Below are positions 18,828 through 49,872 of a DNA stretch of 57,132 bases, piece after piece. The DNA is from Nitrospirota bacterium (GTDB lineage Bacteria > Nitrospirota > Nitrospiria > Nitrospirales > UBA8639), in assembly GCA_029864405.1 (NCBI GenBank), contig JAOTTP010000009.1, positions 1 to 57,132 on the forward strand, written 5' to 3'. Below the pieces are notes generated by a model. That model was not told the DNA's origin. It ran no database searches and worked only from the letters and a program-made list of their open reading frames with translations. Each line of letters opens with the position of its first letter. The stretch's first letter is position 1. The translations under genes and the position numbers were made by a program.

Positions 18828-19394
18828 TCATGGACTCTTTGTAGAGACGTTCCTATGGAACGTCTTCTTCGCTTGATCAAAGTTTTTCGGGTTGTCATCA
18901 TCCAATTCCCACTTCGCGGGATTATCCACAATATATTGGCAAATATTCCCTAACGATGACTCATCCCGAATGATATGTTCATAAAAGCGCGCCTGCCAGG
19001 CAAATTGGGGAAACCCAGCCCCACGAATCCGTTTGGTACACACGGATTTGAATTGTCCGATAATGGCTCCCAGAGAATGTGCGGTCAACCGGCTCTTTGT
19101 AGAGACGTCCCGGCGGGACGTCTTCCCTGCGCCCACGTTGATCACAAGAATCCCATGCAGGTGGTTGGGCATCACAACAAACTCATCCAACTCAACCTGT
19201 TTCCTAACCGTAGCCGTTCGCCGCCATTCTTCTTCCACAATCAATCCTGTTGGTGATAAGCTCACCGCCCCGTCCACAATTTCTCCCAACACACATTGTC
19301 GATCATCCGTACAGATGGTGACAAAATACCATCCCGCCTGCGAATAATCCCACCAGGGGAGACGAATGGACTGGCTTCGATAGCGAGGGTGCAC
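18828..19394 (-). CDS. REP-associated tyrosine transposase (RAYT, IS200-like Y1 HUH)
   Basis: 188 aa with a GTG start. The HUH metal motif appears as MPNHLHGILVI near residue 80, and the catalytic Tyr is likely in WQARFYEHIIRDE. The opening (SIRLPWWDYSQAGWYFVTICT) is standard for the REP-associated transposase family, single-strand nucleases that mobilise REP palindromes. Unusually, two REP palindromes lie inside its own reading frame. One at 19099-19126 encodes TSRRDVSTKSR between the HUH motif and the Tyr helix, and one at 18841-18866 encodes the C-terminal RNVSTKSP. It is located within the cluster of REP copies. Confidence 0.9.
   Translation of the reverse strand: MHPRYRSQSIRLPWWDYSQAGWYFVTICTDDRQCVLGEIVDGAVSLSPTGLIVEEEWRRTATVRKQVELDEFVVMPNHLHGILVINVGAGKTSRRDVSTKSRLTAHSLGAIIGQFKSVCTKRIRGAGFPQFAWQARFYEHIIRDESSLGNICQYIVDNPAKWELDDDNPKNFDQAKKTFHRNVSTKSP
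18841..18866. repeat. REP family A palindrome (variant, inside RAYT 3' end)
   Basis: The arms AGACGTTCC and GGAACGTCT pair around TAT, and GTAG precedes as in the other family A copies. Confidence 0.7.
19099..19126. repeat. REP family A palindrome (in frame inside RAYT)
   Basis: GTAGAGACGTCCC-GGC-GGGACGTCT. It lies within the transposase coding region without breaking the frame. Confidence 0.85.
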
Positions 19395-19430
19395 TGATGT
19401 CCTCTAGATTTCCACGCACATCACCATTCA

Positions 19431-19515
19431 GAGACGTCCCACCGGGACGTCTCTACATTAGGCAGCAACCCGATTGATTCCGTTCTTGTAGCGAGGTGTC
19501 GGTGACACGTCGTCT
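19431..19515. repeat. REPIN: family A plus family B palindromes
   Basis: Family A (GACGTCCCACCGGGACGTC, 19431-19456) is followed 31 bp later by family B (TGTCGGTGACACGTCGTCT, 19488-19515). The unit lies between the TIR gene stop and the RAYT start. Confidence 0.85.
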
Positions 19516-19552: not shown

Positions 19553-21085
19553 CTATAACCCGATTAATTTCCTGACGGGTTCAAACAAAGGGCTGTACCG
19601 GATTCGATCGAAGAATGTGGGACGAAGGTCCTGTGGGTTGTCAGCGGTTCCCGTTTTGACATAGCCGGCCTGGCCTTTCAGATCCACGACAAGTTGATGG
19701 TTTTCCTGGTCTACGCTGATTGAGGTGATTTCAAAATGATCCAGGTGGTCCAAGGTCAGAAACGCATTCTTTTCAATTGAAACCGAAGGCATTCCTTGGG
19801 GACTCAGATATTCCACCGTTCCCGAAAAACCCTCAGGTGATTGACGTTCACCGGTGCCGGGATCCTGCCAGGAAAAGTCCACGGCTTGTATGGGCAACAC
19901 CGACCGAGAGATAAATTTCTGTTGTGCGGTTTTCATTCCTGTGGGTATGGTCTGTTTTTCTTTGAGCACCAGGACAAAGGCTTGGTCCTGCCCAAACAGT
20001 TCGATTGTCCCCGGCTTGTGTTCAAAAATGATTTGATAGGTCAGCTCTTGATCTTGGGGAAAGGGTATTGAGAGCCCTGAAGACGCCTTCATCCCTGTTT
20101 CAAGGAGTTGCACGGCATGGATTCCTGACATCACCACTCGCTGTCGCCCTTGCTTCGTTCGGATCAACCAGGTGAGGGCATTATCATTGGAAACTTCCAT
20201 ACTCACCACCGCCTCGTCGGTGAGCACGATCCCATCGAGTTGTCCGGCAACAGCCGCCTTATCCTCCGTGGTTTCGATCGTGATTTCCGAGGAGATGCTG
20301 GGCCTGTCCGCTGCAAATTGCACCGTCCGCCCATTGATCGGCAAATCGAGCCAGGCTTTCGGCGGATAGCTATCCGACGCCATATCATAATCAGCGGGGT
20401 CCGCGACCAGCAGCCTGTCCGGACTGACCGAGAGTTTCCCGACGTTTTCAACGGTCAGGGTGCCAAAGGGCAGTGCATCGGTCAGCCGCTTATCATCCAA
20501 GTCTGGAGCTACGCTAAATTCAATCCGAGCCGTCTCCACATGGACGGAAATCACCGGGGCTACTCGCACAAAGGAACTGCCGATAAGCAGGAGGGCAAGA
20601 ATACCGCCCACCATCGCCTTGATCCCCAAAAGGGCCACCAGTTTCCCCATCACGGACGCTTTCGTGGAAGAGGCCTTCGGCAATTCTACGGACCTCCCCT
20701 CTAATTTGGCCTGGATGACGCTGAAAAGAATCTCAAATTCTTTGGATCCGGACGAGCCATTCCATCCGAGAAAACACAGCGCTTGAATGCCGGTAAAGGC
20801 CAGAGGAATGGCATTGGCTTCCAACAGGACCGGGACCACTTTCTCCTGGTTGAGCGCTTCCCGGGCCTCCGCCCGCACCCACCGGGAATTTTTGGCGTGG
20901 CCTGTCCATAAGACCACCACACATTTCGCGGCGGCCAACGCGTCTTCAATGGTTTTATCCCACTCGCTTCCCACTTGAATCTGGCGATCCCACCACACAG
21001 ACAGTCCCGATTGCTCCAACGCCGCCGCCAGCCGTTGGGCTACGGGCCGATCCTCACTGGCGTAACTGATGAACACTTCCTTCAT
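19553..21085 (-). CDS. Membrane TIR-domain protein
   Basis: About 510 aa from the ATG at 21085, which opens the TIR domain directly (MKEVFISYASEDRPVAQRL). The frame is open to 21229 but would run into the upstream gene. TIR at residues 1-125 includes the WWDRQIQVGSEWDKTIEDAL helix and SRWVRAEAREAL, where the Glu of RAEA (about residue 73) is the candidate NADase glutamate. A transmembrane helix sits around residues 150-173. The remaining 330 residues are beta-rich and probably extracytoplasmic (FSVAPDLDDKRL, LDLPINGRTVQF, VVDLKGQAGYV). This suggests an outside sensor with an inside TIR effector or signalling domain. The exported protein gene ends 20 bp upstream, so the two are probably cotranscribed. 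Confidence 0.88.
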   Translation of the reverse strand: MKEVFISYASEDRPVAQRLAAALEQSGLSVWWDRQIQVGSEWDKTIEDALAAAKCVVVLWTGHAKNSRWVRAEAREALNQEKVVPVLLEANAIPLAFTGIQALCFLGWNGSSGSKEFEILFSVIQAKLEGRSVELPKASSTKASVMGKLVALLGIKAMVGGILALLLIGSSFVRVAPVISVHVETARIEFSVAPDLDDKRLTDALPFGTLTVENVGKLSVSPDRLLVADPADYDMASDSYPPKAWLDLPINGRTVQFAADRPSISSEITIETTEDKAAVAGQLDGIVLTDEAVVSMEVSNDNALTWLIRTKQGRQRVVMSGIHAVQLLETGMKASSGLSIPFPQDQELTYQIIFEHKPGTIELFGQDQAFVLVLKEKQTIPTGMKTAQQKFISRSVLPIQAVDFSWQDPGTGERQSPEGFSGTVEYLSPQGMPSVSIEKNAFLTLDHLDHFEITSISVDQENHQLVVDLKGQAGYVKTGTADNPQDLRPTFFDRIRYSPLFEPVRKLIGL

Positions 21086-21105
21086 GAATGAAGGGGAGCC
21101 TCCCT

Positions 21106-21879
21106 TTACGGGTTCAAAATTGGCTGATGGTAGAAATGAATCTCTTTGGAAAGGGGTTGATTGGTGGAAAGAGAAAACCCGCTGATGTCCAGTTTGTAGG
21201 AGCCTGGCTCTGCATCTTTGGCGTCCCAATGGATCGTAAAGGGAAGACCGGCACGTTTTCTCCGGAAGATTTGCCTCTCAACTTCCTTGCCGGTGGCCTT
21301 TTGTGTAATGGAAGCCAACAGTCTCGCATCTTCTCCGGTTTTTAACGTAAAGAAATAGCCTTCAATTTTAGAGGGCGCGTCCTTGTGATACAGCACCCCA
21401 GGGGCTACTCGCTCTATGCTGGAAGTCGACTCCGCATCCAGGCGAACCAGTGCCCCCAATTCATAGAGACCGAGTTTGGGAGTCAGTTGTTGCAAAACAG
21501 GATCGGTCGGCCAGGCAAAGATATTCTGAAAGCCTGTTTCCCATGACCGGGCAGGCTGGACTTTGTCCAACCAATAATAGGTGCGATAATCCAGTTCGCG
21601 AACGGTCAGATACACCGCATGCTCGTCATCCAAATAGAACTGAAGCTTCACCGCATTCGGAAAGTTTCCAGAGGAGACCGGTTCCTGGTAGTCGGCCAAA
21701 ACCGAAATCAATTCTACATTCAATCCCGAGACCGGCTTCGGTTTGACGCCTTCCTTCCACCTGCCCAATTGATCCTGACTCCGAGATTGGTATTGTAAAT
21801 CCAGTTGCGCCAGGAGCAGGGAAGGAACGGCTCCCCAAACAACCAGAATCAGGAGAAGCCCCCAAGAGCACCGCTTCAT
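21106..21879 (-). CDS. Exported protein of unknown function, partner of the TIR gene
   Basis: About 257 aa from ATG 21879, chosen because AGAGGGA lies 8 nt upstream and the protein then begins with a signal peptide (MKRCSWGLLLILVVWG...LLLAQ). The mature part is beta-rich with many aromatic residues (RELDYRTYYWLDKVQPARSW, YHKDAPSKIEGYFFTLKTG, GSYKLDISGFSLS). The C-terminus resembles an immunoglobulin-like/FlgD-like sandwich (PFTIHWDAKDAEPGSYKLD). I do not recognise the family. The 20-bp gap to the TIR gene suggests a common operon, and possibly an interaction with its extracytoplasmic region. Confidence 0.75.
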   Translation of the reverse strand: MKRCSWGLLLILVVWGAVPSLLLAQLDLQYQSRSQDQLGRWKEGVKPKPVSGLNVELISVLADYQEPVSSGNFPNAVKLQFYLDDEHAVYLTVRELDYRTYYWLDKVQPARSWETGFQNIFAWPTDPVLQQLTPKLGLYELGALVRLDAESTSSIERVAPGVLYHKDAPSKIEGYFFTLKTGEDARLLASITQKATGKEVERQIFRRKRAGLPFTIHWDAKDAEPGSYKLDISGFSLSTNQPLSKEIHFYHQPILNP

Positions 21880-22614: not shown

Positions 22615-25600
22615 TTACGATTCAGGCTCCCCATTTGTTCCGTCATCGGACACAAGACTCTCGCGTAATGTTTTCAGTCCTTCGCCAAGCTGCTGACGAA
22701 TTTTGGGAGGTGCTTGGATGGCGACCATTGATTCAAAGAAGCTGATATTTTTGATGACGGAATCCATTTCTCTGGCCGAACCTCCCCGTCGTTTGGCTTC
22801 AAGATATCCCTTGCTAATTTCCTTCTGATCGTTGGCTGTTATACACTGGGCATATAATGAATCGAGCAGTTTGTGATCCGGGGTCAGACTCATATCCCAG
22901 AAGGAGTAACTCTTTTCTTTCAAGTCCTTTGCATACGTGGCTAATTCAGCAAGTCCCTCTGTGATCGGATCAGCTCCTTTCTTTTTCCCTCGTTGTGGTT
23001 GCCGCACTGTAGGCTGTACCCACGACAGCACAACCTCAGCCGCTATCCGATTCCCCAAGGGATAATACAGATCGTTTCGCTGAGCATCTTTGCCAATTGT
23101 ATAGCCCTCCGCATAACAATGCTGCATTTCATCTAGGGCTTTCCGTTGCTCTGCCTTATTCTTGAGAAGCATGGCTTTCCCTTTATAAAGCTTCCCTTTG
23201 AGAGCATACCGCTCTTGTGTTTTTTGAATCGTGAGAAGGCCCGCCAGAATATGTTCCGCATCGTCAAACAGCTCCTTGATCGGGAATTCCTTTTCTAGGG
23301 GGTCTGCCTTTTTTTCTTTTGGATCTCCCTGCCTTTCAACACGGTCGAGCGCCCACCGGACTTTGAGGTTGGCTAACTGTTCCAACGACTCCACCGCCGC
23401 ATCGGCTGGTTGGAACGCTCGACTCCGATCATAGTACCGAACGGCTTCAGGAAACAGTTTCAATTCCCCATACGCTTGCCCTAACGCCGCGCACATGGCC
23501 GCGGAATCCGTCCACCCTTGCCCGGCACAGGCAACCAATTCCTCTAATTGACGTCGCAACCGAGCCTCATCTTTCGGCTCGGCCGTTTTGGCCTGTTGAA
23601 CCAGATTGTATAATTCCACTTGCAGCTCGGCAGGGGCCACCATCCGGCGTTGAATACTTATGCTTTTCGCTCCGATGTGTAATGAAAAATCCGGATCCCC
23701 ATAACATTGATAGGCTCCCCACGTATTGGATCCGCCCACGCGAAGATAGATCTCCTCACGTGCCAGCCGTACAGCATCACCGAACGGACGATTTTGGAAC
23801 ATCTCTTCATAGAATTTCTTGGCGAAGGTTTTGGCGGCGAGGTCGTCCACGGCCCAGCCTGCGGCCACCACCGCCCGCACACCCATCCGAATCAGTTGGG
23901 TCCCCAGGTTTGAGGCGAGTTGATGAAACGGCACTTGCGCCTGTTCAGCACTACCTTTTTTGGTTTGTCCGAGATAGCAACAGTTCAAAAACACCAATTC
24001 AGGCACATACCGCATTTGATCAATTTCGGCCGGGGTCAAAAACAAACCCTCCCCTAGGACCATCCCCGTGACCGTTTTGGGTTGCGCACAAGGGTCCTTC
24101 TCGAGGTCTGAAGTCGTGCGTTTGGCAAGCGTCTCTTCTAATGGAAATTCAAAGACGCCATGCGCCGCACAATGCACAATACGATAGGGTTGTTGATACA
24201 GAGCCGTCAGAATCGCATCCGGTGTCGCGTCTCCCTCCACGAGTTCCACCACATCCCGGTACCCCTGGCGGCGAATGAGTTGCGCCACTTCCCGCGCTTC
24301 CATGGCAGCACCCGGCAAGGGAGCAAATTTTCCTGCGGGTTCGTGACTGGTGGGGTCGCCAATGACCAGGGCATTGAGGGCTGTCCCATGGAGGACATTT
24401 TCACGGAACTGAGTAACCGCCATTTGTCGGACCATCCCGGCCTCCACCGCTAGAGGACGCGAGTTGGGATCAAACCGATTGTGCAACAATTCCCAAGGAT
24501 AGGCGGCAGACTTCTCGTCCAGCACCAACACCATACTCCGGCGGTCCGGAGCATATTCCTTCATCCGGTTCGGAATGATGAGTTCAAACAAGGTGCTGGA
24601 TAATTCCAGATCATTTTGTGTGGTGGCCATGGCCCGTTCCAAAAACCGTTCAATGAGTTTTCGTTGTGCCGGCTGCAAATAGGTTTCCGCCCGCGCACGA
24701 TTGGTAAGGGCTTCAAATTTCAAGGAGCCGTCATTCTGGGTGGCAATGCGCAGTCGTTGCCACCAGCCCTCATCTTCATCAAAGGAGGCACGGCGGCGCC
24801 CCTCAACTCCTTCGACCATGACTTCATGGATATTTAAATGTTCACGAAAATCACGTGATCGTCCCAGGTCCAGTAGCGATTTCGTGGCTTGAATGGCCCG
24901 ATCTTGATACAGCTCGAGTATCTCGACCGTCTCGATGGAGGCCGTGAGGCTTTCCTTATTTGGGGTCTGCTTTTCAGATTCAGGTGTCTCGGTCGGTTCT
25001 AGCCGGTCCAAACGCCGATTCGCCTGAAGAACTCCGCGAAGAAGGGATTGCAAGGAATCAACCAGGGACATTCCTCCTGCACCCGTCCCAATCAGCAACA
25101 TGGTCAAAGGAATTTTCAGTCTTGGACCACACGAACCACCCACAGCCGTGGCACTGCGGCGTTCCCGCTCAACCTCGATACACTTGAGAGCATAGTTGAC
25201 GATCGCATCTGCCATCGTGCTCGTTAACCCTCCAGGGGTTAATTCCCCAACCATGCCCAGCCCCACGACTATGGCCCCTGGATGCGTTCTTCCTTGATGA
25301 CTTTCCCCATCGTTGAGCACCACGGCAGAGGTATTGAGTTTATCCGGATACAGGCCCAAACTCTGTCGTTCACGCAATCGCCCATTGAGTTGCCGGTCAA
25401 GATAGGCCTCGGCACTGACAATCGTGTCTCCTTCATAATGCCCCACCGCCACAGGAGAAGATGCGCGGGACAAATTGCCATGGACCATGGTCACCGTAAT
25501 TTTCCGGGTAGACTGGCGTTTCTTTTTGACGCGAACCGAGCCCAGGGCGGACGCAATGAGATCCTCTTCACTGGGATACATCTCGAGCGGAACCTCGGGG

Positions 25601-28185
25601 AGCTCAAAGGGGGCATCGGACACCCCACGACGAACGGGAGGCGCCTGGGACAACTTCGTAGTGGCCCCGGCATTCAATAAATCAAGCAGCCCATCAAATG
25701 TGTCCGGAGCATTGGCCAGATCACCATGCTCAGTGTCTACATAATACGTCTTGTGTTTGAGTTCTTCGGGAATGCCGGTATCCCATGTAACCCGACCATC
25801 CCCAAAGGAGGTCGCATCTATCCGTATTCGTTTCTTGGCTGGGGCCGAGAGGTCAATGGAGACATCACACGGTGTCGCATCCGCACGCCCCGCGACATAG
25901 ATCATCCGTTGAGAGTCAATTGGGCTGGCCTGAAGAAGTCGCTGAACCTTTAGGGCTTCAGCCAGTTGCGCGGCATCAGGCACGGGCCACTCAATTCCCG
26001 CTGTGTTTGAGGTCGCCACTTTCGCCCCAAATAGCCCTCGTGCCCGATCTCGATCATGCTCCAGGAGGGACCGCCAGGTTTCCGCTTGATAGACATCAAG
26101 AGTCCCTTTATGCGGGAGAAGCTGCAAAACCCCGTCAAATCGGGAAATAATTCCCAGTAAAGTCGATTGGGAATTGGTGATATCCAGAAGGTCTAACATT
26201 CGCACCAGTGGATCACGCCCCATAAGCATTCCGGTGATGGCATGCGACCCCATATTGGGCGTACCCAACATGATGAACCGGGCACCCGGATGCCGGCACA
26301 TGCGATCCCACACCTTTTTCCCCTCTTCCGTCGCAATCATGACTCGCACCACCAATCCGCCCATGGAGTGCGCGACAATCCGTACCGGTTGTCCAACCGC
26401 CTCCTGTGCCTTGACTGTTTCCTCTAAGTCCTCGCGAAACCGGTCAGCGAGTTCGATCAACGATTTTCGCCAATCATAAGCAAAGGGTTTGACCGTATGA
26501 GAATTGGCTAAATATTGGATGAGAGCCTTATAGCCACTCCCGATAGGTTGATCAGCCACCACATGTTTCGCAGTATGCTTAAGCTTTTTCAGGCCGCCAA
26601 AGGCTAAATCCAACTTATCTAACCAGACACGATCCTTTCCCACCTTGAGTTGACTGCCCATGGTGCCGGGCAGGACATAGACAACAGGCTGTGGGGATCC
26701 GACGGCGCGTTTGCGGTAATCATCTTCGGTCACTTCGGAAGGCTCGCGCTCCAGTCGGTGATAGAGGGAATGGGGCGCGTCCTTGGTGAGGGCCTGCATC
26801 AGCCGATTCGCTGTATCCGGATTGCGAAAATAATGGAAATGATCCACGTCCTTTCCGGTATCGATCCAATACCGCACCTCCCCTATACGTTCAGTCCCCC
26901 CGAACATCGCAGGGGTATTCACCACCAAATCATGATCTTCCCGGTAGAATAAATCCGTCACGAACGTTTTGAGTCGGCCGGCAATCCCCTCTCCCGCCAG
27001 ATCCCCTCCCAATATGTGCAGATCCGCCCTTGTCCGCACTCCCGGTCGATTGAGGACTCGAACCAACGGCGAACCGGGCATCTGCGCTTCAAGCCCGGGC
27101 AACTCTTCCGGTTTCGTACGATTTTTCACCACGGCAAGGAGGAACGCGGAGAGTCCCTCAACCACCGGATTGCCCTTTAGTCCCGGGATCGCCTCAACCA
27201 CATTCAGAATAATCGATAGATACCGATCCAACCGGCCGCTCGCCAACGTTGTGCCACGAGCCGGACAGCCCACCCGCACAAACCGCTCAATGACCAATTG
27301 CTTCTGTTGGAGCAGGTGACCGAGTTGCTCCAACTGCTTCAGATCGTCCTTCCGATCCGGTTGGGCCAATACCTTAAAATCATCCTGATCAAAGGGAAAT
27401 CGACCCTCCATGATGCTGCGACAGAGCAATTCCCCCACGAGTCCACCACGGGAATGCGAGACCAGGTGAAGACGAGCCCCTTCGGGAAAATACCCGGCAA
27501 GGTCCAACGCGTTTTGAATGGGATTGTGAGAAAGCGTTCGATGTTGAAAGGCCAGCACACGTTTGGGGTAATGCGTCAGGAGTTGCGCCATAAGCGGATT
27601 GGCACCACCATCCCATAGGCCACCGAAACTGCCCTCGGTGGAAGACGCGGTTCCGTGAATAAAAACCAGCCACGGAGTATTCGTTTTTTCCTTTTCCAGG
27701 GATTTGATCCGTGTGTAGTCAGAAGAGGCTTTCCCCTCCCACCGATAAAGTCCAGGCCCAGGCTTCAACACACCCTCGACCTTATCCTTAATCAAGTCCG
27801 TGGTCGCGCCAACGGGATCCAAACCAAAAACTTTGAGCCCTTTAATCGTCCAATTTCCCATTAGCCCACGGCTCGCGGAGCCGATGGGCAATGCTTGGGG
27901 AAGCTCGACCTCGTCACCGGCCGATCCACGAGTAGGAGTCAATCCAAAATCCTTCTCCAGATCATCCGCACGGACCCACAATTTCACTCCCTGATCCAAT
28001 TCCAGCTGAATGAGATCATCGGGGCTCAGATCCTCAATTTCCAGAGGCGGATGGCCCGCGCGAGCCCGTTGGACCCTGGCACTGTGTTTAAGGGTGACCA
28101 GATCCTTCAGATTGGCAGGAAAATCGGGAGTTGCGGATTTCAGGTCGAGCTGCTCACGTTGTCCATGCACGATAAGACGTTTCAT
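22615..28185 (-). CDS. Giant two-hydrolase plus CHAT protease conflict protein
   Basis: 1856 aa, cytoplasmic by appearance (no signal peptide or TM). Domains in order: an N-terminal adaptor region (1-150); a first alpha/beta-hydrolase with LVSHSRGGLVGEL (nucleophile Ser245) and FIHGTASSTEGSF; a second lipase/acyltransferase-like hydrolase starting VVYVLPGTMGSQLK, with IVAHSMGGLVVRV (Ser607); a middle region (about 880-1250) containing VTMVHGNLSRASSPVAVGHY; a CHAT caspase-fold protease with His in CAAHGVFEF (about residue 1342) and Cys in FLNCCYLG (about 1403); and a helical, TPR-like C-terminus (about 1540-1780). CHAT proteases are effectors in several bacterial immune systems and often respond to STAND or TIR partners. 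It lies just downstream of the DGR in the same direction. The combination of two esterase-type domains and one CHAT in a single chain is unusual. Confidence 0.88.
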   Translation of the reverse strand: MKRLIVHGQREQLDLKSATPDFPANLKDLVTLKHSARVQRARAGHPPLEIEDLSPDDLIQLELDQGVKLWVRADDLEKDFGLTPTRGSAGDEVELPQALPIGSASRGLMGNWTIKGLKVFGLDPVGATTDLIKDKVEGVLKPGPGLYRWEGKASSDYTRIKSLEKEKTNTPWLVFIHGTASSTEGSFGGLWDGGANPLMAQLLTHYPKRVLAFQHRTLSHNPIQNALDLAGYFPEGARLHLVSHSRGGLVGELLCRSIMEGRFPFDQDDFKVLAQPDRKDDLKQLEQLGHLLQQKQLVIERFVRVGCPARGTTLASGRLDRYLSIILNVVEAIPGLKGNPVVEGLSAFLLAVVKNRTKPEELPGLEAQMPGSPLVRVLNRPGVRTRADLHILGGDLAGEGIAGRLKTFVTDLFYREDHDLVVNTPAMFGGTERIGEVRYWIDTGKDVDHFHYFRNPDTANRLMQALTKDAPHSLYHRLEREPSEVTEDDYRKRAVGSPQPVVYVLPGTMGSQLKVGKDRVWLDKLDLAFGGLKKLKHTAKHVVADQPIGSGYKALIQYLANSHTVKPFAYDWRKSLIELADRFREDLEETVKAQEAVGQPVRIVAHSMGGLVVRVMIATEEGKKVWDRMCRHPGARFIMLGTPNMGSHAITGMLMGRDPLVRMLDLLDITNSQSTLLGIISRFDGVLQLLPHKGTLDVYQAETWRSLLEHDRDRARGLFGAKVATSNTAGIEWPVPDAAQLAEALKVQRLLQASPIDSQRMIYVAGRADATPCDVSIDLSAPAKKRIRIDATSFGDGRVTWDTGIPEELKHKTYYVDTEHGDLANAPDTFDGLLDLLNAGATTKLSQAPPVRRGVSDAPFELPEVPLEMYPSEEDLIASALGSVRVKKKRQSTRKITVTMVHGNLSRASSPVAVGHYEGDTIVSAEAYLDRQLNGRLRERQSLGLYPDKLNTSAVVLNDGESHQGRTHPGAIVVGLGMVGELTPGGLTSTMADAIVNYALKCIEVERERRSATAVGGSCGPRLKIPLTMLLIGTGAGGMSLVDSLQSLLRGVLQANRRLDRLEPTETPESEKQTPNKESLTASIETVEILELYQDRAIQATKSLLDLGRSRDFREHLNIHEVMVEGVEGRRRASFDEDEGWWQRLRIATQNDGSLKFEALTNRARAETYLQPAQRKLIERFLERAMATTQNDLELSSTLFELIIPNRMKEYAPDRRSMVLVLDEKSAAYPWELLHNRFDPNSRPLAVEAGMVRQMAVTQFRENVLHGTALNALVIGDPTSHEPAGKFAPLPGAAMEAREVAQLIRRQGYRDVVELVEGDATPDAILTALYQQPYRIVHCAAHGVFEFPLEETLAKRTTSDLEKDPCAQPKTVTGMVLGEGLFLTPAEIDQMRYVPELVFLNCCYLGQTKKGSAEQAQVPFHQLASNLGTQLIRMGVRAVVAAGWAVDDLAAKTFAKKFYEEMFQNRPFGDAVRLAREEIYLRVGGSNTWGAYQCYGDPDFSLHIGAKSISIQRRMVAPAELQVELYNLVQQAKTAEPKDEARLRRQLEELVACAGQGWTDSAAMCAALGQAYGELKLFPEAVRYYDRSRAFQPADAAVESLEQLANLKVRWALDRVERQGDPKEKKADPLEKEFPIKELFDDAEHILAGLLTIQKTQERYALKGKLYKGKAMLLKNKAEQRKALDEMQHCYAEGYTIGKDAQRNDLYYPLGNRIAAEVVLSWVQPTVRQPQRGKKKGADPITEGLAELATYAKDLKEKSYSFWDMSLTPDHKLLDSLYAQCITANDQKEISKGYLEAKRRGGSAREMDSVIKNISFFESMVAIQAPPKIRQQLGEGLKTLRESLVSDDGTNGEPES

Positions 28186-28276
28186 TGTTTATTCCTCACA
28201 TGATGTTGTTGGCATGACCACTAATTCTCCCCGGCAGAAGCTAGCGGTTATATGTGCGATTGCTGACAACCGTTCC

Positions 28277-28300
28277 ATTTTTTCTCTCTGGAGAAAAAAT
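28277..28300. other. A/T hairpin upstream of the CHAT gene
   Basis: The perfect 10-bp stem ATTTTTTCTC/GAGAAAAAAT encloses a TCTG loop. Reading on the minus strand it separates the DGR/REPIN segment from the CHAT start, so it may be a terminator or regulatory structure. The role is unproven. Confidence 0.45.
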
Positions 28301-28384
28301 CGCGGGACTATTACAGCAAATCCGTTGAATAATTCCTACCCTTCGCCCTGTAAGGGCTCTAAAAACGGTTGGCCTTAACTCCGA

Positions 28385-28470
28385 TAGACGTCCCGCCGGG
28401 ACGTCTCTACACAAAAGGACCAACAGAATGAATTTCGCTTTTGTAGCGACGGGTCGGTGACCCGTCGTCT
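28385..28470. repeat. REPIN between TR region and the CHAT gene
   Basis: Family A (GACGTCCCGCCGGGACGTC, 28385-28410) and family B (GACGGGTCGGTGACCCGTC, 28441-28470) are separated by about 30 bp. Confidence 0.88.
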
Positions 28471-28541
28471 TGGGTTGCGAACCGACCAACAACTTGCCGG
28501 AAGGATAAGAAAAAAAACGACATCACACAACCACGCAGCGG

Positions 28542-28573
28542 CCGGGGCCGACAGAATAACCCACCGGCCCCGG
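28542..28573 (-). ncRNA. GC-rich hairpin downstream of the TR (possible DGR RNA 3' structure)
   Basis: The arms CCGGGGCCG (28542-28550) and CGGCCCCGG (28565-28573) form a perfect 9-bp stem with a 14-nt loop. It lies about 140 nt downstream of the TR in the transcribed direction and about 25-30 nt before a T8 run (28511-28518 on the minus strand). In characterised DGRs, RNA next to the TR is structured and needed for cDNA priming, so this could be the TR-RNA 3' element or its terminator. Its function is inferred. Confidence 0.45.
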
Positions 28574-28712
28574 TTTGCCTCACCCCAGGCTCTCTATTCG
28601 GCGTTCCCGCTTGTGCAGGAGGCCGGGAAGCAGGCTCATGGACACCCGCTGCCACTCCCACTCTGTCCATAAACAGAATGGCCCTGGGCCGGCTATGGGC
28701 CGTGCGGGCGGA

Positions 28713-28829
28713 CTGGGCAAGACGAAAGCCGATGTTGTTGTTCCGGTTGTCGGTGTTGTTCCTGTTCCGGTTTGATGATCGCAAGTTCTCCGGTTTGTTG
28801 TTCCAGGAACCGCCCCGAATCACACGCTG
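28713..28829 (-). repeat. DGR template repeat (TR)
   Basis: 117 bp, read on the minus strand from CAGCGTGTG to CGTCTTGCCCAG. It is rich in AAC codons (conceptual RVIRGGSWNN, NRNRNN, DNRNNNIGFRLAQ), the hallmark of templates whose adenines are randomised. It aligns without gaps to the VR at 30493-30609. Identical anchors are CCAGCGTGTG at the 5' end and CGTCTTGCCCAG at the 3' end. My hand count gives 36 adenines, of which 23 differ in the VR, against 17 differences at 81 other positions. It lies in the same open frame as the reverse transcriptase C-terminus. Confidence 0.9.
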
Positions 28830-29904
28830 GCCGTCTCTTGGCCCACTCCCCTTGTGAACACAGCCTGGGGAGAAGATACCCCTGCGAAGTCCCTCCGTAT
28901 CGGCATGCTGCGCATGCCCGATCCAGCTTTGGGTGGAAGCCACCACCCTGGCCCATTTCAAGCGCCCCGCTCCAAATGCCCGGGCCATTCCGCGGAGCTT
29001 TCGCGCAAAACGATGCCCATTGTCATTGCGCAACCGCCGCCGGGTCGGAAAGACGAGATAGCCCAGCAGGTTGAGCCCGTCAGCCACCCGCGTGATATGC
29101 GCCTTATGGGGATGCAAACGCAGCCGGTCAACCGCTAGCCGATCTCGAACCGCTGTTCGAATCTCAGCAAGTCGTCCTTTGTCATGCCCCAACACCACCA
29201 TATCGTCCACATACCGCAGGTAGGGGCGGATCTGTAACTCCTGCTTGATGAAGTGATCGAGATCGTCGAGATATAGATTGGCAAAGAACTGACTGGTCAG
29301 ATTGCCAATGGGAATGCCCACACGACGAGCCAACGGCGTGAACAGGTCATCCCCGGGAAAATAGCAGGTCTCGGAAGCCAGGGTGGGTGACCCATCAATA
29401 ATCCGATCCAGGAGGTCTAAGACCCCGTGATCTTTGAGGCGTCGCCGAAGCTTTTCTTTGAGCAAATCATGATCGATTGATGGGAAATAGTGCCGGACAT
29501 CCATTTTTCAAGGCATACCGGTAGGTCTGCGCCCAGGTCTGATACCGATCCACCGCCGCATGCACACCCTTCCCCCGCCGACAGGCATACGAGTCGGCAA
29601 TAAAGGTGCGGTCCAGACTGGGCTCAATCACCTTCATCACAGCATGATGCACCACCCGGTCACGAAAGGGTGCCGCCGCAATGACGCGGGGCTTGCGATC
29701 ATAGATGGTAAACAGGCGATATTCGCCAGGCCGGTAGGTTCCGTCCAGTAGCTCACGCTGCAACCGCAACAATTCTGACTCCAGATGCAGGCTAAATTCA
29801 GCGACTCCAGGCCGTCGACCTTTCCCCAGCCTGGCCTTCCGGTAGGCGGCCAGAAGATTCTCAAAACTCACAAGTTGAGGCCACAGATCACCAAGCCGCT
29901 TCAT
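28830..29904 (-). pseudogene. DGR reverse transcriptase, split by a one-base frameshift
   Basis: The first part (29904 to 29467) opens MKRLGDLWPQLVSFENLL and carries GRRPGVAEF, RVIAAAPFRDRVVHHAV and SYACRRGKGVHAAV. The second part (from 29504) continues MDVRHYFPSIDHDLL, IPIGNLTSQFFANLYL and LRYVDDMVVLGH. The IGxxxSQ and YVDD motifs identify a DGR reverse transcriptase, not a retron or group II enzyme. The two parts join exactly as ALK-MDVRHYF if one A is removed from the A5 run (T5 at 29504-29508 on the plus strand). A normal domain would end near LRRGIFS (about residue 345 of the joined protein). No stop follows, so the frame runs on through the TR to 28407. The first four bases overlap avd (ATGA). 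The gene is frameshifted or the assembly has a homopolymer error; all core motifs are intact. Confidence 0.88.
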
Positions 29905-30260
29905 GACGAGGCCTGCAACGATTCACGACTGCGGCGCCAGCCGCCGATCTGCCGCCCTAAGTCATCCAGCAATTTGGCGCCATGTTCGTATTTGCGGGTC
30001 GTCACCACTTTCAACTCATGCGCCACACGCCAAAGATGCCGCACCACTTCCAGGCGAAGATTCGCATGGGCCAACGCCTGGTCTTTCTGTCGGCTGTAGG
30101 CGGCTTCTATGAGTCCTTCCAGCACTTCCAAGACCCCGGCTTCCATCCGCTCCCCCAAGGTGAACCGGCGCGAGCGTGGAAAGGTATCCAGTTGAGGGAT
30201 GAGCCAGAGGAGCAGCTCGTGACAGGTCTGCACAGCTTGCGGGACATGAGAGGGAGACAT
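29901..30260 (-). CDS. avd: Accessory variability determinant (Avd) of the DGR
   Basis: 119 aa, nearly all helical, matching the four-helix-bundle Avd/S23-like family: HELLLWLIPQLDTFPRSRRF, TLGERMEAGVLEVLE, LRLEVVRHLWRVAHEL, RKYEHGAKLLDDLGRQIGGW. It is basic, as expected for a nucleic-acid-binding pentamer. Avd binds the reverse transcriptase and the TR-RNA and is required for mutagenic cDNA synthesis in studied DGRs. It overlaps the reverse transcriptase start by ATGA and lies 220 bp after the target gene, with a REPIN in between. Confidence 0.92.
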   Translation of the reverse strand: MSPSHVPQAVQTCHELLLWLIPQLDTFPRSRRFTLGERMEAGVLEVLEGLIEAAYSRQKDQALAHANLRLEVVRHLWRVAHELKVVTTRKYEHGAKLLDDLGRQIGGWRRSRESLQASS

Positions 30261-30323
30261 GAAATTCTCGCCGATCTTTCAACCTAAATGGATGGGAACG
30301 GCCGACCTTCCGTTTCCTTCTTG

Positions 30324-30435
30324 CGTAGCGACGGGTCGGTGACCCGTCGTCTTTGACCGCGTCGCCCATGACATCGTCGTCCCACCTTATGTCATCCAGC
30401 CAGCCAAGAGAGACGCCCCACCGGGGCGTCTCTAC
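30324..30435. repeat. REPIN between target gene and avd
   Basis: Family B (GACGGGTCGGTGACCCGTC, 30324-30352) and a family A variant with compensating changes (GACGCCCCACCGGGGCGTC, 30409-30435). Both arms of the variant changed together, so the hairpin is preserved. Confidence 0.87.
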
Positions 30436-30480
30436 GAGAAACTCGAAGAGGAAAAGGGTAAAAGGATAAAGTCCAAAGGG

Positions 30481-33192
30481 TTAGGGGATGTCCTGGGCAA
30501 GACGCAAACCAAGGGTGCTGCCCCGGGTGCCCATGGGGCCCATGTACCGGTGAGATGCCTCGAGGGCGCCTGAGGCGTTGTCCCAGGAGCCACCCCGCAC
30601 CACACGCTGGGTACAATCACCCCCCTCGCCTTCCAGCCAGGCCGAACCATCCGTTGGCGCCCTTTGGTAATCGTAATGCTCACAGTCCTCCACCCATTCC
30701 CAGACATTCCCGCTCATATCATACAGGCCGAAGCTATTGGGTTCTCGCCCCTCATGTTCACCAACCTCAGCCGTGCGATTTCCCGAGTTAGCCGTATACA
30801 CAGCATACTCCTTAAGTTGGGTTTCATCCGATGTTCCAGCCCAAACTTCTTCCTTCTCGCCACTACGCGCGGCATATTCCCATTCGGATTCCGTCGGCAA
30901 ACGATAGCGCTTGCCAGTCTCCTCGGACAGCCAGGCCGCATACGCCTTCGCACCTTTCCAGGAGACATTTATCACGGGCCGCTGATCACGCCCCCACCTT
31001 TGATCATTGGGCAGGTGGTCTCGATTGGTCGCAATAACAAATTGATCGTATTCCTCAAACGTCACCTCATACTTGCTCATAGCAAAGGATTGAATGGTGA
31101 CGTCCCGGACAGGGTTGCTCGACGCCTCACCTAATCCCTCGACATCACCCTGCCGATACGTGCCCCCGGTAATGGGCACCATCTCCTGCGGTACATGAAT
31201 GCTCATCACCAGGGATTGCACTTTCAAGCTGGCCTGCTCCACGTTATAGCCCTTTTGCCACAGCCAGCTGACACCCGCTATTAACAGCAGGACAACAAGC
31301 CCGCCCCCCATCCACAGGTGTCTGGCTCGGCGGCTAGCTTCGAGAAACTCTTTGGTGAGACCGCCAGCGGTGACCCCGGCTTGTTGGAAATCGTGATATT
31401 CCCGACCGGTAGCCAATCCGCTGAACCACGGTTTGCCAATGGTGCCCCATTTTTTGGTTCGACTTTCCAACAGCGTGCGATCCATCAGCACCTTTTTGTG
31501 GGTCACCACATACTCTCTCAACGCCGGCCAGGCCTGAAAGAGTTTTTCATGGCTGATCGAAACTGTGGCCTCCTCCCCCTCGCCTTCGGTACGCAATAGA
31601 CGTTCGGTGACCAACCGGTCGATGACCGGATGAAGATCAGTCGGGAAATCTTTTTTCTTTTGGCGGTTGCGGGTGGGGATGCCCTCTTCCTTTTGCACTT
31701 TGGCAAGGGTGTGAAAAATTCCGGGAAACACCTCCGCTGTCTTGACGCCTAATGTGCGCTCGATGCTGGCTTCCACGTTTTTCACGTGGGCGCCGATCGC
31801 GCCGGCCACCCCGCCTAGCTTGTCGTAGGCCGTTTCACTTAAGACCTGATCCGTGCGTTGTAGAAAGAGCCGATCAAGCACAAAGGCCAGCAACGGGAGG
31901 TTGACCGATTCCGCTCCTGTATCATGAATGAGCCGCTTAGCGAAAGCTTCGGTAATTGTCAGGCCGGCCGCTTGGGCAGGTTTCAGAATCATGTCTTGCA
32001 TCATGTAGGGCTTGACAGGGCCAAGCGCATAGTGGCCTTTGCCATTTAACACTTTCACCATGTCTGGATGGCGGTGGCAATAGTGGAGGTGGTCGCTCCG
32101 TATGGTGCCAATGACCCACAGAGCCTGCTCGTTCGCGGCCTGATAAAGCCCCGCCAGAAAACTGTTGGCCTGCGTCACGTCATGGGCGGTAAAGAGTTCT
32201 TCCATTTGATCGATGAACAGCAGGAGCATGCGGGAGGAGCCGCTGCCTTTCATGATGGCCTTGATCTGCGCGCCGAGCTTTTCCGGGGCCCTGGTGAGGT
32301 CTTCCAACAACGTATCCGGTCTGAGGCCGGCCTGGGTCACCAGGGAGCCCAGGGCCCCCAGCAAGGCTTCCAACGGCTGCTGGCGTTGGCTGGGCACCAT
32401 GCGCACACTCTGACAGGGCTGCGCGTCGGGAAGCCCACCGTTCTCCAGTTTGGGCAGGAGGCCCGCATCCACTACGGACGATTTGCCGACGCCGGAGTCG
32501 CCGCTGATGATCAGGAACCGGTCTTCCGGTTCCCGCAGACGGTCCAGGATTTCACGCAACTCGGCATCGCGGCCAAAGAACACGGGCGCATACTTGCGGG
32601 TGAAGTGTAAGAGGCCGGGATAGGGAGAGCCGTCTTGTTCGATATTCCAAGTGACCAGGGCAAGCTTGGCTGGCTCGCTGGGCGGGGAGGGCTCTGATTG
32701 TTTTCTGTCCTCCAGATGTTTCGTCACGGCCGCCAGGACCTCGTTAGCTAGCGCATGCGGTACAGAAAATTGGCCAGCCATTTTTTGCGTGAGCAAATAT
32801 TGGCGGAGGCATTCAATGCGTTTGCCCTTCTCTCCTTCTCCTGTATACGCATCCACAAACTTGAGCGGAATCCCTGCATCCTCTTTTGCGATAAACGTGA
32901 GGCTGGGCTTTTTACAGGTTATAGCATGCTGGAATTCTAACTCCGTGATAGACAAATTCTTCGGGTTGCCGTGATCCACTGGAGGAACGTACCCGTACCG
33001 AAAGGCGAACAGACCAACGTAAAGATCGGCTTTTTCTACGTCCTTGAGACATTGATCCACCGGTCGCCGATCGGCCGCCACATAGTCCTCCATGGCGATG
33101 ACTTGATACCCACTCTTTCGCAGAGCCTCGAAGACAACCTGACGATAGTCTTTCAGATCTTCGTATGTGGAGGAGAGATAGATGGCTGGCAT
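30481..33192 (-). CDS. DGR target: DUF4062-STAND NTPase-TM-FGE/lectin-like protein
   Basis: 903 aa. Domains: DUF4062 (residues 1-105; MPAIYLSSTYEDLKDYR, ADLYVGLFAFRYGYVP); STAND-type P-loop NTPase with Walker A GDSGVGKSS (231-239) and Walker B LLLFIDQMEEL (323-333), preceded by PVFFGRDAELREIL; a winged-helix/helical region to about 620; a transmembrane helix (about 627-645, MGGGLVVLLLIAGVSWLW); and an FGE-sulfatase/C-type-lectin fold (668-900; VPITGGTYRQGD, SKYEVTFEEYDQFV, RLPTESEWEYAAR, LYDMSGNVWEWVED). The VR covers residues 862-900. DUF4062 and STAND modules are typical of bacterial conflict and signalling proteins, and FGE-type lectin domains are the commonest DGR targets. The topology suggests a cytoplasmic NTPase with the diversified domain outside the inner membrane. 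It has its own upstream spacer with a REPIN. Confidence 0.92.
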   Translation of the reverse strand: MPAIYLSSTYEDLKDYRQVVFEALRKSGYQVIAMEDYVAADRRPVDQCLKDVEKADLYVGLFAFRYGYVPPVDHGNPKNLSITELEFQHAITCKKPSLTFIAKEDAGIPLKFVDAYTGEGEKGKRIECLRQYLLTQKMAGQFSVPHALANEVLAAVTKHLEDRKQSEPSPPSEPAKLALVTWNIEQDGSPYPGLLHFTRKYAPVFFGRDAELREILDRLREPEDRFLIISGDSGVGKSSVVDAGLLPKLENGGLPDAQPCQSVRMVPSQRQQPLEALLGALGSLVTQAGLRPDTLLEDLTRAPEKLGAQIKAIMKGSGSSRMLLLFIDQMEELFTAHDVTQANSFLAGLYQAANEQALWVIGTIRSDHLHYCHRHPDMVKVLNGKGHYALGPVKPYMMQDMILKPAQAAGLTITEAFAKRLIHDTGAESVNLPLLAFVLDRLFLQRTDQVLSETAYDKLGGVAGAIGAHVKNVEASIERTLGVKTAEVFPGIFHTLAKVQKEEGIPTRNRQKKKDFPTDLHPVIDRLVTERLLRTEGEGEEATVSISHEKLFQAWPALREYVVTHKKVLMDRTLLESRTKKWGTIGKPWFSGLATGREYHDFQQAGVTAGGLTKEFLEASRRARHLWMGGGLVVLLLIAGVSWLWQKGYNVEQASLKVQSLVMSIHVPQEMVPITGGTYRQGDVEGLGEASSNPVRDVTIQSFAMSKYEVTFEEYDQFVIATNRDHLPNDQRWGRDQRPVINVSWKGAKAYAAWLSEETGKRYRLPTESEWEYAARSGEKEEVWAGTSDETQLKEYAVYTANSGNRTAEVGEHEGREPNSFGLYDMSGNVWEWVEDCEHYDYQRAPTDGSAWLEGEGGDCTQRVVRGGSWDNASGALEASHRYMGPMGTRGSTLGLRLAQDIP
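30493..30609 (-). repeat. DGR variable repeat (VR)
   Basis: 117 bp forming the last 39 codons before Asp-Ile-Pro-stop of the target (RVVRGGSWDNASGALEASHR...LGLRLAQ). It is ungapped against the TR, with identical terminal anchors of 10 and 12 nt. Of 40 mismatches counted by hand, 23 are at TR adenines. The 17 others, several silent (GGC/GGT, GGT/GGC), indicate divergence since the last full retrohoming. Confidence 0.9.
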
Positions 33193-33283
33193 AGTTTAAG
33201 AAAATCTGAACAGCGTGACCCCGTTCCCTTGAATGAGCCTATTTGGCCAGAATCAAGAAATAATTGCAAGCCTCTTCTCGGAA

Positions 33284-33364
33284 AGACGTCCCACCGGGAC
33301 GTCTCTACATGAAATAGATTGGTCCGTTCTCTGTTGTAGCGACGGGTCGGTGACACGTCGGCTT
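33284..33364. repeat. REPIN upstream of the target gene
   Basis: Family A (GACGTCCCACCGGGACGTC, 33284-33308) and family B (GACGGGTCGGTGACACGTCG, 33334-33364) are 25 bp apart. The following 90 bp (GTTTGCTAGAG...GATTCCGGC) is partly repeated at 34290-34345, so a longer unit may have been duplicated. Confidence 0.85.
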
Positions 33365-33493
33365 CGTTTGCTAGAGCAGCGTCGGTGATAGGTGTCTTAG
33401 GGATAGATTCCGGCTCATGACGCACCCGGATTGATCGAAGGAATTTTGGGTGGGAATGGCTGCTTTCCCAACATCAACTATTCCCACTACACA

Positions 33494-33880
33494 TTACCAA
33501 GCGGTTTTGACTGGGTATTGACGAATGGTCTCGTCTTTGGTGAGCAGGATGATTTTTTCTGAAATCGCCTGGCAGATTAATAAACGATCAAATGGATCTC
33601 GATGGATCCAGGGGAGTGTGACGTGGGGCTCACAATGCCGTTCATAGATCGGCAGATCTACAATTCGATTTATCTTTTTTTCTTGTTCTAACAAGCCTTG
33701 CCACCCTTTTTGGAGCTTGAGTTTTCCTAACGAAAGCTTCACGGTTAGCTCCCAATAACTCGCCGCACTCCAAAATAATTCGTGTTCTCCATTCTTTAAA
33801 ATTTGTTTCGCTCGTTTGCTTAATTCATCAGAGTCTTCCAAAAACCAGAGCATGACATGCGTATCGAACAGGTACTTCAT
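33494..33880 (-). CDS. PIN-domain toxin (VapC-like)
   Basis: 128 aa. The PIN-fold acidic residues are visible in FDTHVMLWFLED, in SAASYWELTVKLSLGKL, and in IHRDPFDRLLICQA near the C-terminus. These proteins are Mg-dependent ribonucleases, usually held inactive by the antitoxin encoded immediately upstream. The start overlaps the antitoxin stop by ATGA. The full usual length is present, so it is probably functional. Confidence 0.92.
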   Translation of the reverse strand: MKYLFDTHVMLWFLEDSDELSKRAKQILKNGEHELFWSAASYWELTVKLSLGKLKLQKGWQGLLEQEKKINRIVDLPIYERHCEPHVTLPWIHRDPFDRLLICQAISEKIILLTKDETIRQYPVKTAW

Positions 33881-34107
33881 CCCAGGGCATCCGGGAATTC
33901 TTCGAGCGAATCATCAAAATCGCTTGAGATATATTTCACAATGCCTTTGGCTCCACCCAACGTCCGTGTTTTTTGGGCCTCTGGAATAGGAACTATTCTT
34001 GCGACTGGTTCCTTCCCCTTGGCCACAATAATTTCCTCCCCGGCTAAGGCTCGTTGAATCAGCTTCGAAAAATGCGTCTTGGCTTGATGAATGGTGACAA
34101 TGGCCAT
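33877..34107 (-). CDS. Phd/YefM-type antitoxin
   Basis: 76 aa. Phd/YefM N-terminus MAIVTIHQAKTHFSKLIQRA with GEEIIVAKGKEPVARIVP, then a short acidic tail that would wrap the toxin. It probably also represses the pair's promoter. First gene of the toxin-antitoxin operon, coupled to the PIN toxin. Confidence 0.92.
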   Translation of the reverse strand: MAIVTIHQAKTHFSKLIQRALAGEEIIVAKGKEPVARIVPIPEAQKTRTLGGAKGIVKYISSDFDDSLEEFPDALG

Positions 34108-34183
34108 AATCGTTGATTATAAATGGACTAACCTATTTAGTCAACTTCACTAATATCATTTGTTTTCGTGACACATACACCAT

Positions 34184-34291
34184 CGTAGACCTCCCACCGG
34201 GACGTCCCTACTTAGGGCAGTTTGATCCGTGATCGATGGCAACAGGAAGATTTTCTTCTTGTCGCGACGTGTCGGTGACACGTCGTCTTCG
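34184..34291. repeat. REPIN upstream of the toxin-antitoxin operon
   Basis: A family A variant (GACCTCCCACCGGGACGTCC, 34184-34211) and family B (GACGTGTCGGTGACACGTC, 34261-34291). The family B arms have compensating changes relative to other copies. Confidence 0.8.
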
Positions 34292-34485
34292 TTTGCTAAA
34301 TTAGCGTCGGTGCCACGGGTCATTGGAAGAGATTCCGGCCCCCTGCTCAACTCCTTGCAGGGGCAGGCTCCACCTGCCGGATTGACGGAGGGATTTTTTT
34401 CTCGTCATGCCTGCTGGGAGTTGCCAAGCATATTTGATGGAACGGCAGGAAAATACAGACCGGTGCTGTCCACCCTACGTTTTCT

Positions 34486-34513
34486 CGTAGACGTCCCGCC
34501 GAGACGTCTCTAC
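34486..34513. repeat. REP family A palindrome, island edge
   Basis: GACGTCCCGCCGAGACGTC with one mismatch in the stem, just past the stop codon of the outer-membrane lipoprotein gene. It is the last REP I see in the window. The rest of the 34292-34485 gap includes a short GCAGGGG/CCTGC hairpin region and no gene. Confidence 0.8.
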
Positions 34514-47440: not shown

Positions 47441-47662
47441 CTCTGTTTGCCTCCTGGCGCGAACGCCCTTGACGGGATGCTCAAGGCACCTTTTTGATCT
47501 CTGGCCCATTGCTCTCCAGCCCTAGAGCCTTCATAATAAAACCATTCGAGACATACCGGGATGTATGGTGTATTTGTCTGGACCGCGACTCCAAATATAC
47601 GCACGTCCCGTCTGTCTAGTCCGAGGTTATCATCTATCAACACACAACAAGGGGTGGGTCAC

Positions 47663-49217: not shown

Positions 49218-49802
49218 TTATTTCCCGAAGACGGAAACCCAGGGGTCACGACCAAGCACCCAGAGATAAAAGAACGTGCCCAGCCATCCATGATAAAGAC
49301 CCAGCGGCCAGAGATTCCGATCGCGGATATACAACGGAATAAAAAAGCACGCCAGAAGACCCGTGGCTAGCATCAGCCACCAATCGGGGAAATGGACTAC
49401 GGCAAATAGCATCACCCCAACGGGAATGGCCAACAACAGGCCAAGTTGGGGAAAGAGTTTCATGAGGTTATCGACACCCAGGGACTGCACAAGAAACTGT
49501 TGGAGGATTCCCCACAAAGGATACAGGAACAACAGAAACAGCATGTGGCCTTGCCAGAGCACTCGTCCAGTCATCATGCCATACCAGGCCATGGCTAACC
49601 CCGACCCAGCAAATAACACCGATGGCCCAATAAAGGCTTGTCGAAGGTTGTCGGTGCGAAATCCCCACCTCTTCCACCTCGTCGGATTTCGCCGAACCTG
49701 CCAGACAACATAGCTCATCCAACTGATGCTGGCTAAGGCTATGAAGAGTCCCTTTGCATCAAGACTCTTGAACACAAGATGCAGCAGCCCTGTCAACACC
49801 AC
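49218..49802 (-). CDS. CPBP-family intramembrane protease-like protein with altered active site
   Basis: About 195 aa if the GTG at 49802 is used. The frame is open to 50021 but that part overlaps the PAS-like gene. A CTG near 49853 with GGAGG 6 nt upstream is another candidate. Several transmembrane helices are present, and the CPBP/Abi motifs appear in order: GILQQFLVQ in place of EExxxR, MLFAVVHFPDW (FxxxH-like) and LYHGWLGT. The usual catalytic Glu-Glu pair is Gln-Gln here, so proteolytic activity is doubtful. It follows the PAS-like gene in the same direction. Confidence 0.65.
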   Translation of the reverse strand: MVLTGLLHLVFKSLDAKGLFIALASISWMSYVVWQVRRNPTRWKRWGFRTDNLRQAFIGPSVLFAGSGLAMAWYGMMTGRVLWQGHMLFLLFLYPLWGILQQFLVQSLGVDNLMKLFPQLGLLLAIPVGVMLFAVVHFPDWWLMLATGLLACFFIPLYIRDRNLWPLGLYHGWLGTFFYLWVLGRDPWVSVFGK

Positions 49803-49872
49803 CGCAGAAAATTCCCACCACTTGGCAACCCGATCATCGGGAGAAATTTTCAGAAGAACCCTCCCACACGAA

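Follow-up and report, generated by a model that had tools for sequence, protein, structure and literature searches.

Does a diversity-generating retroelement (DGR) in the chromosome of a Nitrospirota bacterium still diversify its target protein? The question is raised by the window, a stretch of 57,132 nucleotides (nt) that forms one contig of a Nitrospiraceae metagenome-assembled genome (MAG; 2.885 Mb, 66% complete); the analysis covers this one MAG and one genome per species. In a DGR, a reverse transcriptase (RT) together with the accessory protein Avd copies the RNA of a template repeat (TR), erring at adenines, and the resulting cDNA takes the place of a variable repeat (VR). The original prediction, made from the sequence alone, had placed a target with a VR, Avd, RT and TR in this order on the minus strand and had envisaged very large sequence variety in one protein. 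Profile matches, motifs and a comparison of TR with VR recovered all four parts in that order. The locus is a DGR by descent, and we infer that this chromosomal Avd/FGE-target element has most probably lost its function, with a split RT, a drifted VR and a frozen target.

All parts of the element described here lie on the minus strand, in the order DUF4062-nSTAND1-FGE target, Avd, RT (in two pieces) and TR. The target gene (30481–33192) is a single open frame of 903 amino acids (aa), in which Pfam profiles mark DUF4062 at aa 4–90, an nSTAND1 NTPase at 190–584 and an FGE-sulfatase/C-type-lectin-like domain at 669–899. The C-terminal domain scored 172.9 bits as FGE-sulfatase, and its solved-structure matches include PvdO and Treponema denticola variable protein 1. 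This is the layout of an nSTAND-FGE sensor, with an N-terminal domain, a STAND NTPase and a C-terminal FGE domain; following the reading of such proteins in the available text of PMC10907252, the target may serve as an immune receptor or sensor. The Avd gene (29901–30260) encodes 119 aa, and the predicted Avd-type protein is borne out by matches to bAvd (Pfam, E 5.7e-18) and NF033474 DivGenRetAVD (NCBIfam, 97.5 bits with a cut-off of 80). The TR (28713–28829) is rich in Asn codons, as had been noticed, and its last four bases are overlapped by a structured RNA (28542–28716).

Descent from DGRs is supported by the RT. A tree was built from the C-terminal half of 38 RTs, namely the window, 30 genome-contig loci, the same-genus genome G015, one plasmid RT, the phage BPP-1 and four group II intron RTs; one locus (L115) was left out as it had no RT match. 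The window RT clusters with the DGR RTs, apart from the four group II RTs, with a support of 100/99, which rules out a position outside the DGR clade and settles the phylogenetic check proposed with the original prediction in favour of the DGR assignment. Both RT pieces fall in one reverse transcriptase family of PHROGs. Among solved structures, the best match was to the Reverse transcriptase chain of 8ub7 (E 1.1e-22; maturase 3.1e-8), which we take to be the BPP-1 DGR enzyme. PADLOC matches of the RT were read as general RT resemblance. Together with the Avd protein, the adenine-rich TR, the C-type-lectin-like target and relatives of the same layout whose TR/VR pairs are nearly adenine-only, these results identify the locus as a DGR by descent.

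The RT is not encoded by one open gene. Its sequence spans two overlapping open reading frames (ORFs) in different frames, 29467–29904 (145 aa) and 28407–29504 (365 aa). The N-terminal piece occupies the first of these in its own frame, with the final ~13 residues off-frame, while the C-terminal piece lies in the second frame at 28870–29504 and carries IGNLTSQ, fitting (I/V/L)GxxxSQ, and YVDD. Hence the predicted IGxxxSQ and YVDD motifs were found, but not in the single open gene expected for them. Examined for frame integrity as a mark of DGR membership, the RT failed through two 1-nt insertions. One, within an A run at 29508, throws the catalytic half out of frame. The other, at 28870 (CCCC for CCC), removes the native RT end, and the frame then continues through the TR to 28407, which explains why the 365-aa ORF matches FGE-sulfatase. 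Both the extra A near 29508 and the extra C near 28870 are absent in 11 of 12 aligned relatives; the twelfth (L064 and L067, respectively) was not alignable at that place. The ORF table and the alignment with relatives thus rule out an intact single RT gene.

Assembly noise as the cause of these breaks was assessed on other coding sequence of the contig. The control comprised ~18.9 kb, made up of a neighbouring gene for a CHAT-domain protein and another 13 ORFs (the total refers to the comparison with genome G013), compared with up to three genomes of the same genus (G013, G018 and G009). No private frame-breaking indel comparable to those of the RT was seen in these 14 ORFs, so the control does not support assembly noise. 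Differences that were not multiples of three and recurred in all three genomes were located at 47635 and ~39575, in each case ahead of a conserved start. At the end of the ORF at 49218–50021, two genomes differ in the final two bases, each in a different way, and against G013 only, differences were found at 47419 and at two internal places of the same ORF. The other control differences were nearby balanced pairs. Against the more distant G009, the CHAT gene showed 41 indels, 35 of them non-multiples of three with a net of -39, and both frames are fully open.

The VR points to a longer decay. At the 3′ end of the target, where a VR had been predicted, a VR-like stretch is indeed present (30493–30609), but it carries non-adenine mismatches, unmentioned in the original prediction, of a kind that sets it apart from the pairs of its relatives. 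Over 117 ungapped positions, 23 of 36 TR adenines and 17 of 81 non-adenines are changed (22/35 and 13/81 when gaps are allowed), a divergence of 21% at non-adenine sites in the ungapped comparison. The adenine bias of the changes is significant (Fisher p 1.4e-5), and past adenine mutagenesis is therefore likely. Mismatches facing adenine amount to 23 of 40 or 57.5%, whereas nearly all DGRs reach at least 75% according to the available text of PMC8144416. Among 73 related loci, TR/VR pairs were found in 48, with 0 (33 loci), 1 (11) or 2 (4) non-adenine mismatches, by a pair finder that allowed up to 3; the remaining 25 loci, some of them short or masked contigs, gave no pair. As a control, nine FGE loci elsewhere in the genome (L015 and L016 being one place) differed from the window TR at 0.36–0.52 of non-adenine sites, the window VR being clearly nearer. 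No better or second VR was found in the 2.885 Mb of this incomplete genome, in which only the TR and the window VR are alike beyond short matches. Nor was the VR traced to a different TR: none of those listed is cognate, the lowest count being 16/91 non-adenine changes for the TR of genome G017; in the same test the window's own TR gave 25/104, so that the TR of G017 fits somewhat better. With the RT frame broken twice and the VR off at more than a fifth of its non-adenine sites, the very large variety envisaged for this locus is unsupported for this copy.

Comparison with relatives gives the element a history. Among named relatives, a Nitrospiraceae MAG (L046, DOFS01000577) is the closest; it was taken as one genome with G017 because its match coordinates equal those of G017 contig C479. 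In G017 the DGR lies between the same CHAT and TolC genes as in the window, on two contigs that break within the RT, and its target is a STAND protein, more diverged and partly masked. The VR of G017 is a cognate copy with 18 of 37 adenines and 2 of 93 non-adenines changed. The same genome also carries an FGE gene outside the DGR (L140, G017:C290:3380-3504) with an aged tail (18/35 adenines, 18/92 non-adenines changed), possibly a former target in trans. Genome G015 has an orthologous target (73% aa identity over 903 aa). Its DGR (L141, G015:C222) has a 334-nt deletion across Avd and RT plus further indels, and its VR shows just 3 non-adenine mismatches despite the wrecked machinery. Of three DGRs found within the genus, two are broken, and their lesions are unrelated. 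In G013, G018 and G009 the CHAT and TolC genes stand side by side; 28346–34488 of the window is missing and the aligned ends are 504–561 nt apart. This interval is the block of target, Avd, RT, TR and a PIN toxin/Phd antitoxin pair that lies between the two genes in the window.

The window element is a mosaic, with RT and Avd nearest to G017 (87–94% aa identity; Avd 94%) and the target nearest to G015. Against G017, the ratio of nonsynonymous to synonymous substitution rates (dN/dS) was 0.10–0.13 for the RT, so that the breaks are probably recent, 0.084 for Avd and 0.175 for the CHAT gene. These low values suggest that the machinery was constrained until recently; VR renewal would have ended earlier, or the VR came with a swapped target. 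On the RT C-half, 14 synonymous and 11 nonsynonymous changes fell on the window branch and 25 and 13 on the G017 branch, with 31 unassigned. For the target, dN/dS against the G015 orthologue was 0.169.

In working relatives, the RT-Avd complex would copy the TR RNA while misreading adenines, and the cDNA would replace the VR of an NLR-like sensor of the DUF4062-nSTAND1-FGE type. From the window copy no full-length enzyme would be expected, the RT being split by the two single-base insertions. Judging from the non-adenine drift of the VR, its renewal probably ceased before the RT broke. Since the target has kept an open frame under purifying selection, it is most likely now a frozen sensor next to dead machinery, while the TR RNA and its structured trailer look intact. 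The anatomy, the frame breaks in the assembly, the drift of the VR, the covariation of the RNA and the empty sites in relatives are shown directly; the lost activity, what the RNA does and the target's role as a sensor are inferred from them.

Several observations weigh against such a decay. A late-kept RT and an intact RNA sit oddly with a longer-drifted VR, which a swapped target would explain, and the RT branch counts are too few to show relaxation. Decay is not the general rule, since the RT frame is open throughout in 60 of the 65 related loci that have both halves; in the remaining five (L063, L073, L109, L110 and L141) it is not open or is uncertain. The pair finder is blind to strongly drifted pairs, the window's included, and the 48 of 73 therefore cannot be read as the frequency of healthy loci. 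Of the nine other FGE loci, two are also nominally adenine-biased (p 0.009 and 0.018), so part of the bias belongs to FGE tails. A cognate VR could sit in the missing third of the genome. Finally, with a single MAG, 66% complete, two homopolymer errors in one gene could still lie behind the breaks.

The last point, taken further, would make the element an active DGR with an RT broken only in the assembly. Both changes lengthen short runs, of A and of C, the dN/dS of the RT is low and the RNA is intact. This explanation is nevertheless unlikely, because ~18.9 kb of other coding sequence on the contig showed no private frame break and because it leaves the 17 non-adenine VR mismatches unexplained. 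The swapped target leads to another history, in which the element recently acted in trans on a VR in the missing third of the genome and the adjoining target was brought in later. It has the mosaic in its favour, as well as G017 with its one cognate VR plus one aged FGE copy. We consider it doubtful, although less so than an assembly error: apart from short chance matches, nothing else resembling the TR was found in 2.885 Mb, none of the other TRs listed is cognate to the window VR, and the RT is now broken regardless. This history overlaps with that of a decayed DGR, which does not depend on it.

Could the divided RT still work, as two polypeptides, by re-initiation at an ATG or by programmed frameshifting? 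The second ORF opens with an ATG right before the motif MDVRHYFPSI, whose aspartate we take to be that of RT motif A. However, the break is found in no alignable relative, the native RT C-terminus is lost as well and the VR has drifted, which makes a working split enzyme very improbable. Least credible, and practically dismissed, is the idea that an unrelated RT merely lies beside an FGE gene and that the TR likeness is a family resemblance. FGE C-termini do have a common RGGSW...GFR pattern, a nominal adenine bias against the window TR appears in two of the nine other FGE loci and the ORF at 28407–29504 matches FGE-sulfatase. The RT tree and the relatives already contradict this idea: the RT clusters with DGR RTs, the Avd profile matches, relatives of the same layout have nearly adenine-only pairs, and the nine other FGE loci are far more diverged at non-adenine sites. 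A decayed DGR remains our preferred explanation.

The RNA behind the TR appears undamaged. We aligned the stretch 3′ of the TR from 22 loci of Nitrospirota and Pseudomonadota, including the window. RNAalifold predicted four main helices, which in the window (minus strand) are P1 (28710–28704 with 28649–28643), the P2 hairpin (28681–28672 with 28667–28658), P3 (28624–28619 with 28606–28600) and P4 (about 28573–28566 with 28549–28542); two invariant capping pairs (28715–28714 with 28638–28637) fall on the last TR bases. In this alignment, 97.0% of cells are paired and 24 of 32 pairs are changed on both sides, compared with 8.9 pairs in shuffled alignments (0 of 500 as high). A slid control gave 36–45% of cells paired; the structure came from the same alignment, which favours it here. 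The TR trailer is thus a covarying structured RNA, conserved among these loci and intact in the window copy.

A model of this RNA (R1; 122 positions, 24 pairs; 28593–28716 in the window) was searched against 82 sources (959 kb). It gave 37 matches, one per source, of which 22 were training loci and 15 were new, including one (L104) whose contig is titled Clostridiales. The window RNA scored 124 bits, third best of the 37. With the alignment of all 37 fitted to the model, 95.6% of cells are paired and 20 of 24 pairs are changed on both sides. The two capping pairs show no covariation at all and are broken in 5 and 4 of the 37, respectively. Matches in loci of the public scan numbered 35, of which 23 had a called TR. 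R1 starts 2–4 nt before the end of TR/VR similarity in 21 of these 23, the other two starting at 9 and -27. The training loci had been set to start at CCAG, so that their anchoring is partly by construction; outside the training set, eight of nine matches with a called TR start at 3. The 12 matches without a called pair lie inside the RT-TR query match or at most 93 nt after it.

R1 had no match in 25 of 48 loci having a TR/VR pair, and the RNA therefore marks one branch of DGRs, mainly in Nitrospirota and Pseudomonadota. A counter-example from Nitrospira (L050, 8724–8894) has a clean pair (18/31 adenines, 0 non-adenines changed) and no R1 match; close to the contig end, its trailer is interrupted once P2 has begun. 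A family scan of 48 genomes, more strictly filtered, found R1 in four: this genome, G017, G015 and, weakly, G032. Rfam gave no match at E 1 in 28000–34500 of the window, so the RNA is not one already known to Rfam, and R1 gave no match at E 0.1 on the BPP-1 stretch (L143).

What might the RNA do? In the BPP-1 model, the RNA primes cDNA synthesis from its own 2′-OH. The long-range helix P1 starts just past the end of TR/VR similarity and, from this place, may set the cDNA start. With the last bases of the TR bound in the capping pairs, an A that never varies among the 22 training rows would come to lie opposite that end. Tentatively, and at somewhat less than an even chance, the lack of covariation in the capping pairs counting against it, the trailer in this DGR clade could be one conserved RNA that fixes the start of the cDNA. 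If true, a whole cellular DGR branch would share a self-priming RNA detectable by structure alone, and the window locus would retain it after loss of the enzyme.

The surroundings of the element add a few observations. The PIN/Phd pair (33494–34107) is located upstream of the target; in G017 (contig C479) the pair, 98% and 97% identical at the aa level, lies between TR and CHAT gene. The CHAT gene (22615–28185) encodes a protein of 1856 aa with alpha/beta-hydrolase, CHAT and TPR-S parts. It occurs in 11 of 20 same-genus genomes, its own included, three of which have the empty site; as it occurs without the block in other genomes, it was ruled out as a partner of the DGR. A TIR-domain protein (TIR_2, 8.1e-27; 19553–21229) is another possible defence gene near the block. 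Almost all module boundaries of the DGR block carry pairs of palindromes with a GTAG foot, mutually inverted and ~60 nt apart; palindromes lie at 19099–19127, 19428–19512, 28382–28467, 30325–30441, 33280–33360 and 34173–34285. Two palindrome patterns, at no more than 3 mismatches, occurred within the 2.885 Mb only on this contig. A shorter pattern was present in 8 of 59 genomes, its own included, all of one genus, with several copies beside the CHAT gene. The pairs resemble REPIN doublets. In genome G016, upstream of the CHAT gene and close to the edge of a contig, a stretch (L142, G016:C103:28-217) is 83% identical to 30313–30510 of the window; this part of the window holds palindromes and the extreme 3′ end of the target, and the G016 stretch is possibly a remnant of the same block.

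As a DGR, the locus is one more and probably a dead one, which corrects the headline of the original prediction. It offers a snapshot of an NLR-like sensor apparently fixed beside dying machinery, in a genus with broken DGRs and three empty sites, and this combination allows diversified and frozen receptors to be compared. While the DGR itself is ordinary, its RNA is the useful part, and the covarying trailer is what is new here: it provides a marker by which this DGR branch can be recognized through structure, and a map, open to testing, of where the cDNA starts in DGRs other than the phage model.

Among the closest known systems are DGR 6 of Thiohalocapsa PB-PSB1 (clade 5D) and its kin, whose STAND NTPase-FGE targets are proposed as antigen sensors of conflict systems in the available text of PMC10907252; some loci described there have repeat arrays in place of RT or TR. 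Like these, the window DGR is chromosomal and has a STAND NTPase target that ends in an FGE-type C-type-lectin domain with the VR. Unlike them, as far as that text goes, it has one target with an N-terminal DUF4062, and the neighbouring CHAT gene is not tied to it. Inactivated DGRs with RT frameshifts, as well as VRs with non-adenine mutations, are on record in the DiGReF survey (PMC3521204). In the portion of the survey available, elements with a broken RT still had VRs changed only at adenines, and the RTs of the examples with drifted VRs were full-length, whereas the window locus combines a broken RT with a drifted VR. An RNA trailing 3′ of the TR is also of a known kind, being predicted as structured for the Bordetella phage DGR (available text of PMC8867640); a model of the present family was not recognized, by title, in our literature search. 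The window DGR shares with that of the Bordetella phage BPP-1 (NC_005357) a VR, Avd, TR, RT and RNA 3′ of the TR, but the TR, which precedes the RT in BPP-1, is located downstream of it in the window.

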